Assembly: GCA_017515325.1 (NCBI GenBank)
Contig: JAFWGA010000020.1
Location: forward strand, 1 to 59,823
Direction of reading: 5' to 3'
Origin: Blautia sp.
GTDB taxonomy: Bacteria; Bacillota; Clostridia; Lachnospirales; Lachnospiraceae
DNA: 59,823 bases
A program made the position numbers and the translations under genes. Below, piece by piece: positions 56,273-57,276 of the stretch. The notes under the pieces were generated by a model. It ran no database searches. It was not told the origin of the DNA and saw only the letters and a program-made list of their open reading frames with translations. Each line of letters opens with the position of its first letter. The first letter of the stretch is position 1.

Positions 56273-56579
56273 GGAAAAGAGCAGCGCCAAATCTGTTTTT
56301 TCTGTGTCTTAAACCGGAATCTGCGGCAAAATACCATTATTTGCTGTAGATTGTCTGTACAAAGTACCATTATTTGCTGTAGATTGTCTGTACCAACGCC
56401 AATACAACAACCCTGTCCGCCGGTCTTGCAAAAATTCTTCCGGAAACAGTTCGTGGAAGAGATTACCACTTCAGGCGGAAAGCTGTGACCTGCCAAAGCT
56501 TGGTCTGAATGAAGAACGGCCTGTTTTCTGCTGTGATAATAGAAGAAAAACTCAAGGACTGGCAGCCTGTGATGAAAAA
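56273..56579. other. Gene-free stretch with a 29-bp direct repeat
   Basis: Between the BspA-like promoter and the terminator of the SH3-like gene. It holds two identical 29-bp copies (56332-56360 and 56365-56393, period 33 bp) beginning taccattatttgctgtagat. A short frame across it exists only because the period is a multiple of three; no ribosome site was found. No RNA gene seen. Confidence 0.6.
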
Positions 56580-56625
56580 AGCCCTCCGAAGGGAGAGGCT
56601 GATCTTCCTCTTCCTTCGGAGGGCT
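56580..56625 (-). terminator. Terminator of the SH3-like gene
   Basis: A 13-bp stem (56580-56592 with 56613-56625), followed on the minus strand by six T residues. Strong intrinsic terminator 30 bp after the stop. Confidence 0.9.
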
Positions 56626-56656: not shown

Positions 56657-56953
56657 TCAATCCAATAAGGTCACAAAGCTAGAATTTACCCAACCCCAGG
56701 TTCCGTTATAGTTGGCCCAGTAGTAGAGATAGCCGGATCCCGATGCGGTATTCCTAACATCTACATAAAAACGGTTGCCAGGATAAATCTGTACAAGGAT
56801 ATTGGAGTCATCCCACACGGCCTGGGAACGTAAAGCAAGATATGTGCCAGCCTTAACATTGGGTACTGCTACATGAAGTTCACCCTGGGGATATCCGTTG
56901 CCGCCTACTACCTGCTCAAGATTAGAATCGGAAAGGTTTTTTGCGTCGCTCAT
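56657..56953 (-). CDS. Double-glycine leader joined to an SH3-like domain
   Basis: 98 residues, no cysteine. Residues 1-18 are MSDAKNLSDSNLEQVVGG, a textbook double-glycine leader: Leu at -12, Ser at -11, Leu at -7, Val at -4, Gly-Gly at -2/-1. Peptidase-containing ABC exporters cut after such Gly-Gly. The remaining 80 residues are not bacteriocin-like but read as an SH3b-type barrel: TYLALRSQAVWDDSNILVQI, YPGNRFYVD and GTWGWVNSSFV, matching the LRSxPs...ixxlpxGxxvxV...GWV pattern. So a small wall-binding domain may be exported by a peptide route. AAAAAAAGGAGGA precedes the ATG. No exporter is in view. Single-gene unit with its own promoter region and terminator. Confidence 0.8.
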   Translation of the reverse strand: MSDAKNLSDSNLEQVVGGNGYPQGELHVAVPNVKAGTYLALRSQAVWDDSNILVQIYPGNRFYVDVRNTASGSGYLYYWANYNGTWGWVNSSFVTLLD

Positions 56954-56974
56954 AAATTATGTCCTCCTTTTTTT

Positions 56975-57150: not shown

Positions 57151-57276
57151 TAAAATATACGTCAAGCGCGATGGGAATCCACGTTAATCTGAAAAAAAAT
57201 TTTTTTCTCGCGACTTGATGCCATCAAGAAATGATTATACTGTAAAAAATGATTCCTACAGATTAATAAGGAAGAT

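Follow-up and report, generated by a model that had tools for sequence, protein, structure and literature searches.

A double-glycine leader on an SH3-like protein of Blautia and its possible link to NHLP-type exporters

In the genome of a Blautia sp., we identified a gene for a small protein in which a bacteriocin-type double-glycine leader is joined to an SH3b-like domain. The gene lies on a stretch of 59,823 nucleotides (hereafter the window), which makes up all of contig C27 in a draft genome (G000) of 3.31 Mb. The gene belongs to a set of 28 leader-bearing SH3 sequences from ten related genomes, which fall into three SH3 subtypes. The reading we favor, to which we give about an even chance, is that an NHLP-type transporter exports a set of SH3 proteins, some of them co-regulated, which most likely decorate or shield the cell wall.

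Double-glycine leaders and SH3b domains are each known, and their combination is unreported in the literature searched. A preliminary description of this DNA had known of no system of this kind, and our search agrees with it: the open-access literature, as far as its accessible parts go and with subscription papers mostly outside the search, describes no double-glycine leader on an SH3 protein. In the accessible parts of individual papers, both terms occur in PMC9610097 only in unrelated table rows, "SH3 domain" appears once in PMC3482391, where the leader term is absent from the text, and "SH3" does not appear in PMC13289728. Double-glycine leaders are usually taken to indicate bacteriocins or signal peptides. 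If their exporters also carry wall-binding domains, some of the predicted bacteriocin systems of gut and rumen Lachnospiraceae would have another role, and the upstream motif described below offers a direct handle on a secreted protein set of unknown function.

A family of SH3-like proteins with double-glycine leaders

The open reading frame (ORF) at 56657-56953 is a real gene with a strong ribosome binding site and its own terminator (Table 1). The preliminary description had seen in it a leader that fits the export consensus at the key positions and a mature part that is probably an SH3b barrel. Both points hold. Leucines at -12 and -7, a valine at -4 and the two glycines are in place, and residues 25-97 of the predicted model match SH3b, with a predicted SH3 beta-barrel fold nearest to the SH3b domains of wall-acting proteins such as the phiSM101 endolysin (4KRT). 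This fold is accompanied by matches to the SH3_3 profile (PF08239) at the level of the family; the window protein alone has no Pfam match and hence none to SH3_3. Its only NCBIfam match, to BLP, is below threshold (11.4 bits versus a cut-off of 40), and neither of the class II bacteriocin profiles PF10439 (Bacteriocin_IIc) and TIGR01847 is among its matches. It contains no wall-hydrolase catalytic domain, nearly all of the 80 mature residues being inside the SH3 match. The SH3b domain of the phiSM101 endolysin is attached to a hydrolase, whereas the domain described here has only a double-glycine leader in front of it and no other domain.

When 61 genomes were searched at the protein level, 26 gave some match at E 0.01, and phmmer on stretches from part of these 26 genomes yielded 14 further ORFs, nine with a double-glycine leader. 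Including the window's gene, ten leader genes were thus obtained from five genomes (G000, G003, G027, G032 and G036), and L12, G17, G18 and N19 are kept in all ten. The other five ORFs are four Sec-type proteins with SH3 domains, as judged by reading, and one fragment. Homologues lacking the leader had been named in the preliminary description as a finding that would count against it; the close homologues retain the leader, whereas other SH3-domain relatives are leaderless proteins of the Sec type. Paralogues with the same leader, which it had proposed to look for, are present: the family genes are dispersed, with at least three leader-bearing SH3 copies in the window's genome. Within the bacterial family, 397 genomes were searched with a profile, and 13 had matches at E 1e-9. 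Leader-bearing genes occur in five of these (G000, G070, G141, G286 and G433); of the remaining eight, seven match only inside frames of at least 324 residues and G202 matches in a leaderless ORF of 150 residues. Among 391 genomes of the class, G000 alone matched at E 1e-9, so that, as far as this sample and threshold show, the genes seem to be mostly restricted to their own bacterial family. An origin from phages or plasmids was rejected: tblastn against 50,697 phage and 72,556 plasmid records gave nothing at E 1e-3, and searches of PHROGs and PADLOC gave no match up to E 0.1.

The 28 sequences comprise a core subtype (18), a divergent subtype (6) and subtype 2 (4). SH3_3 was matched by 10 of the 18 core members and by all four members of subtype 2, three of the latter over the curated cut-off; hhalign found no link between subtype 2 and the core (14%). 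The divergent subtype is connected to the core by an hhalign probability of 97.8%, by weak profile scores (12-sequence set) and by one SH3_2 match over the cut-off (L205), and its AlphaFold model reached a predicted local distance difference test (pLDDT) value of only 66.5. No Pfam match was obtained for L213, L215, L037:3205, L168 and L106. Among the core members, weak matches to PF10439 (3/18, best E 0.00062) and to TIGR01847 (4/18, best E 0.014) were observed. One genome, G141, carries seven distinct leader-bearing SH3 genes, four of the core and three of subtype 2. Across the 32 leader proteins listed, position -12 is I, L or M in all 32, position -7 is L or M in 30 and position -4 is V or I in 31; these counts describe the set and do not test it, because the leader was itself one of the grounds for including proteins.

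A 116-residue leader-bearing SH3-like gene on contig C39 (L168:2058-2408), the third of the window's genome, was found through the upstream motif alone. The same genome encodes longer proteins in which this kind of SH3 domain is repeated several times (G000:C3:155912-156877 and L035:9565-10125). The 74-residue ORF at L034:18667-18891 has a good double-glycine leader and just 18 residues after it.

NHLP-type exporters and their relation to the family

The preliminary description had suggested a search for C39-peptidase exporters, and three such ATP-binding cassette (ABC) exporters are present in the window's genome, all of the NHLP/NHLM type. Their TIGR03796 (NHLM ABC1) scores of 895.5, 871.7 and 931.8 all exceed the cut-off of 853.3, and each ABC1 is followed by a partner with a best match to TIGR03797, over the cut-off in two of the three cases. 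This resembles NHLP/NHLM bacteriocin export (TIGR03796, TIGR03797, TIGR03794), as does the L...L..V.GG motif, in which peptides near NHLM exporters of other genera also end. Two differences stand against this likeness: those peptides have long leaders whereas a short leader is combined here with an SH3 domain, and the HlyD-like gene is short (36.3 bits versus a cut-off of 156.2, covering only model positions 1-49 of 421). Classic NHLP substrates carry long nitrile-hydratase- or Nif11-like leaders; the window protein, with a leader of 18 residues, shows no NHLP-type long leader of the nitrile-hydratase-alpha or Nif11-like kind.

For all three exporter peptidases, the best solved match is LahT of Lachnospiraceae (6MPZ; E 8.2e-64, 1.4e-72 and 1.5e-64). 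According to the accessible part of PMC6363468, LahT requires hydrophobic residues at -12, -7 and -4 ahead of the double glycine and does not accept a charged residue at the L-7 or V-4 position. In the window leader, these positions are occupied by L, L and V, and the leader ends in GG, one of the endings (GG, GA or GS) expected of a double-glycine export substrate. The known substrates of LahT differ, being precursors of ribosomally synthesized and post-translationally modified peptides such as LahA and ProcA (PMC6363468, accessible part). Another C39 exporter, PCAT1, has the 90-residue precursor CtA as its substrate, so that the cargo size here is not unusual; CtA differs in being unstructured inside the transporter and without relation to SH3, as far as the accessible part of PMC6959990 goes.

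Among 37 genomes of the genus, NHLM ABC1 was found with at least 500 bits in 11, nine of them over the cut-off, the others being G018 (839.7 bits) and G003 (a 526.7-bit fragment). All six genus genomes with leader-bearing SH3 genes (G000, G003, G018, G027, G032 and G036) are among these 11 (P 0.0002, hypergeometric, relatedness ignored); members too divergent for the protein search of the 61 genomes may have escaped in other genomes of the genus. In the sample of 397 genomes, NHLM ABC1 occurs in 40 at E 1e-200 and in four of the five genomes with leader-bearing SH3 genes.

Physical linkage was also observed. In G036, the gene immediately upstream of an NHLM operon encodes a 134-residue leader-bearing SH3 protein (L106:12836-13240; E 0.0065 with the core profile) and is followed in line by a HlyD-like ORF, an ABC1 over the cut-off and an ABC2-like ORF, the HlyD-like and ABC2-like calls being made by reading. 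In G003 and G027, a family member precedes a secreted protein of 422-424 residues, which in G003 carries an SH3_3 domain (E 3.8e-13), and then a small protein. Relatives of this secreted protein (58% identity) and of the small protein come after ABC1-ABC2-STAS in G018. A double-glycine peptide lies directly upstream of an NHLM exporter in G141 (L112:7500-7781); its relation to SH3 could not be demonstrated.

A promoter-like motif upstream of family genes

Reading the upstream regions of family genes revealed the motif GTGGA-N15-17-CGTATAT, the -10 part of which we take to resemble an extracytoplasmic function (ECF)-type sigma site. With a spacer of 14-18, the window's genome has six matches versus two for the reversed control. 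These lie upstream of the window gene, upstream of the L168 gene on C39, behind an NHLM cluster before a small protein, near a contig end, 121 bases before a 627-residue ORF and at a place without a likely gene. The site near the contig end (G000:C13:32359-32386) is about 170 bases short of it, and a family gene may sit in the assembly gap. Within the window, allowing two mismatches gave three matches versus 2.85 expected, and the only exact one is at the gene.

With a spacer of 15-17, the six family genomes have 35 sites versus 30 in the other 31 genomes of the genus, and the reversed control has 8 and 37, respectively (rank test for motif sites P 9e-5, relatedness ignored). Eleven of the 35 sites precede a double-glycine gene, nine of these being SH3 genes; three ORFs flagged by a loose rule (L207, L218 and L230) have no double-glycine leader and were left out of this count. 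Since five of the 11 genes had served to spot the motif, 30 sites remain, of which six precede double-glycine genes (P 2e-6; background 257 in 20,000 random positions). Four of these six new genes are SH3 genes (L168, L205, L213 and L215) and two are of another kind (L201 and L204). In genomes lacking the family, 18 sites were inspected (17 of the genus's 30 and one from another genus), and none of them precedes a double-glycine gene. Among the rest of the 35, four sites lie ahead of a conserved small protein, two ahead of Sec-type SH3 proteins (L208 and L209) and one ahead of a relative of the 422-residue protein (L218). The other 17 fall within reading frames, close to contig ends or ahead of ORFs that are unrelated or unclear. 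For 12 of 16 leader-bearing SH3 genes of Blautia, nine of them exactly, the motif is present within one mismatch in 420 bases, a count that is partly circular because four of the 16 genes were found through the motif.

The conserved small protein behind the motif is encoded beside NHLM or accessory genes (L034:10047-10325, L041:2732-2971, L043:3779-4018 and L111:5423-5704). It ends like a double-glycine leader with AA in place of the glycines, e.g. LSDDQVELVNAAQG; lacking the normal cleavage site, it could bind to the C39 peptidase and perhaps act as a regulator. A second kind of motif-preceded double-glycine small protein, not SH3 by profile, is found in G036 (L201:267-500 and L204:1401-1640). 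In G141, the block consisting of TTGGACAT... and CACAAAAGATAA... upstream of L083, L084, L086 and L082 is a control signal different from that in Blautia.

Possible roles of the exported domain

In the mechanism that we propose, the leader of the precursor would be bound through L-12, L-7, V-4 and the double glycine by the C39 peptidase of a LahT-like NHLP/NHLM exporter, cleavage would occur behind the double glycine, and the 80-residue SH3 domain starting with NGYPQG would be pumped out. Many dispersed family members may be controlled by an alternative-sigma-type promoter, of which the motif is a candidate, within a putative regulon that would also cover Sec-secreted SH3 proteins, further small proteins of the double-glycine kind and the small protein at the NHLM locus. 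Once secreted, the SH3 domain would most likely bind the peptidoglycan of the producer or its sisters without an enzyme part and, as a coat, a shield or a competitive inhibitor, may protect against wall hydrolases, phage lysins or the lysins of rivals. A role as coat or competitive inhibitor fits the non-catalytic SH3b domain, the many dispersed copies and the motif shared with Sec-type SH3 proteins. In a broader and more tentative form, which we consider possible with less than even confidence, NHLP-type C39 exporters in Blautia and its relatives would have a dedicated regulon composed of wall-binding SH3 proteins, i.e. an envelope-defence pathway that uses a bacteriocin exporter to build a protein coat on the cell wall and is switched on by an alternative sigma factor together with the Sec-secreted SH3 proteins.

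Several observations weigh against export through these transporters, common control and wall decoration. No exporter adjoins the window gene, no family member turned up in five of the 11 NHLM genomes, and G070, a draft genome with two leader-bearing SH3 genes, has no C39 peptidase match at all. The P values given above are too small, because the genomes are related. A good motif is absent for both G032 members and for two further genes, L035 (2 mismatches) and L037:9259 (3 mismatches), and at the window gene it ends 201 bases 5' of the ATG, farther than in most cases, with a terminator-like hairpin in between. In G141, five leader-bearing SH3 genes have a different conserved upstream block in common. 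Upstream of exporter operons and sigma genes (14 regions), no motif match has fewer than three mismatches. Relatives of the NHLM-adjacent ECF sigma gene with 64-68% identity were found among the 61 genomes only in G003, G027 and G031 (30% in G010), and none at E 1e-20 in G018, G032 and G036. The adjacent sigma factor as the regulator is thus not supported, given this absence and the missing motif at its own gene and at the exporter operons. Finally, the proposed wall binding and shielding have the predicted fold as their one basis.

Among the alternatives, an antagonistic effector would be a bacteriocin whose SH3 domain binds and perturbs the competitors' wall or lipid II, immunity being provided by other means. 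The leader is of the bacteriocin type and resembles that of class II bacteriocins (PF10439), Bacteriocin_IIc was matched by three of the 18 core members, presumably via the leader, and NHLP exporters are named for bacteriocins. We nevertheless regard this role as unlikely. The mature part is SH3, and the gene lists inspected show no recurrent immunity-like neighbor (judged by eye for part of the members, no profile search) and no recurring small co-directional partner (by eye, surroundings of some members); the missing neighbor, together with the lack of an enzyme domain, speaks against a classic bacteriocin. The net charge of the mature part is -1 in the window protein and ranges from -5 to +11 over the set, and the seven distinct copies in G141 and the motif shared with Sec-secreted SH3 proteins fit poorly with an effector. 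Wall decoration is favored over a toxin because of the missing immunity-like neighbor, the dispersed genes and this shared motif.

Next in rank, and doubtful as well, is an adhesion or biofilm protein whose SH3 domain forms a surface layer or attaches cells to one another, to mucin or to feed polymers; a single small domain without a partner domain gives little for bridging. A signal or pheromone carried on a small protein and sensed by a surface receptor would agree with the common upstream motif and with the frequent use of double-glycine peptides as signals (PMC7018657, accessible part). It appears improbable, as an 80-residue domain is large for a pheromone and no recurrent sensor gene was noticed in the gene lists inspected, for which no profile search for sensors was made. 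That the leader is vestigial or fortuitous and the protein remains in the cell, as the G070 members without a C39 match and the missing exporter next to the window gene might suggest, is very improbable in view of the conserved leader positions (in a set partly chosen by its leader), the co-occurrence with NHLM and the Sec-type relatives of the SH3 domain, and a chance leader was rejected since leader and SH3 domain travel together in ten genomes.

Table 1 Positions of the leader-bearing SH3 gene and associated features in the window
Feature	Position	Strand	Remarks
Gene for 98-residue SH3 protein with double-glycine leader	56657..56953	minus	98 codons, ATG start
Double-glycine leader, 18 residues	56900..56953	minus	L-12, L-7, V-4, G-2, G-1; ends VVGG
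Mature SH3b-like domain, 80 residues, start NGYPQG	56660..56899	minus	sequence profile and predicted fold
Shine-Dalgarno sequence AGGAGG	56963..56968	minus	nine bases 5' of ATG; sequence read
Intrinsic terminator	56575..56625	minus	hairpin 56580-56625, then T-tract
Promoter-like motif GTGGA-N16-CGTATAT	57155..57182	minus	common to other double-glycine SH3 genes

Between the gene and its downstream neighbor, at 56320-56400 of the window, the repeat taccattatttgctgtagattgtctgtac was seen by eye in two adjoining copies.
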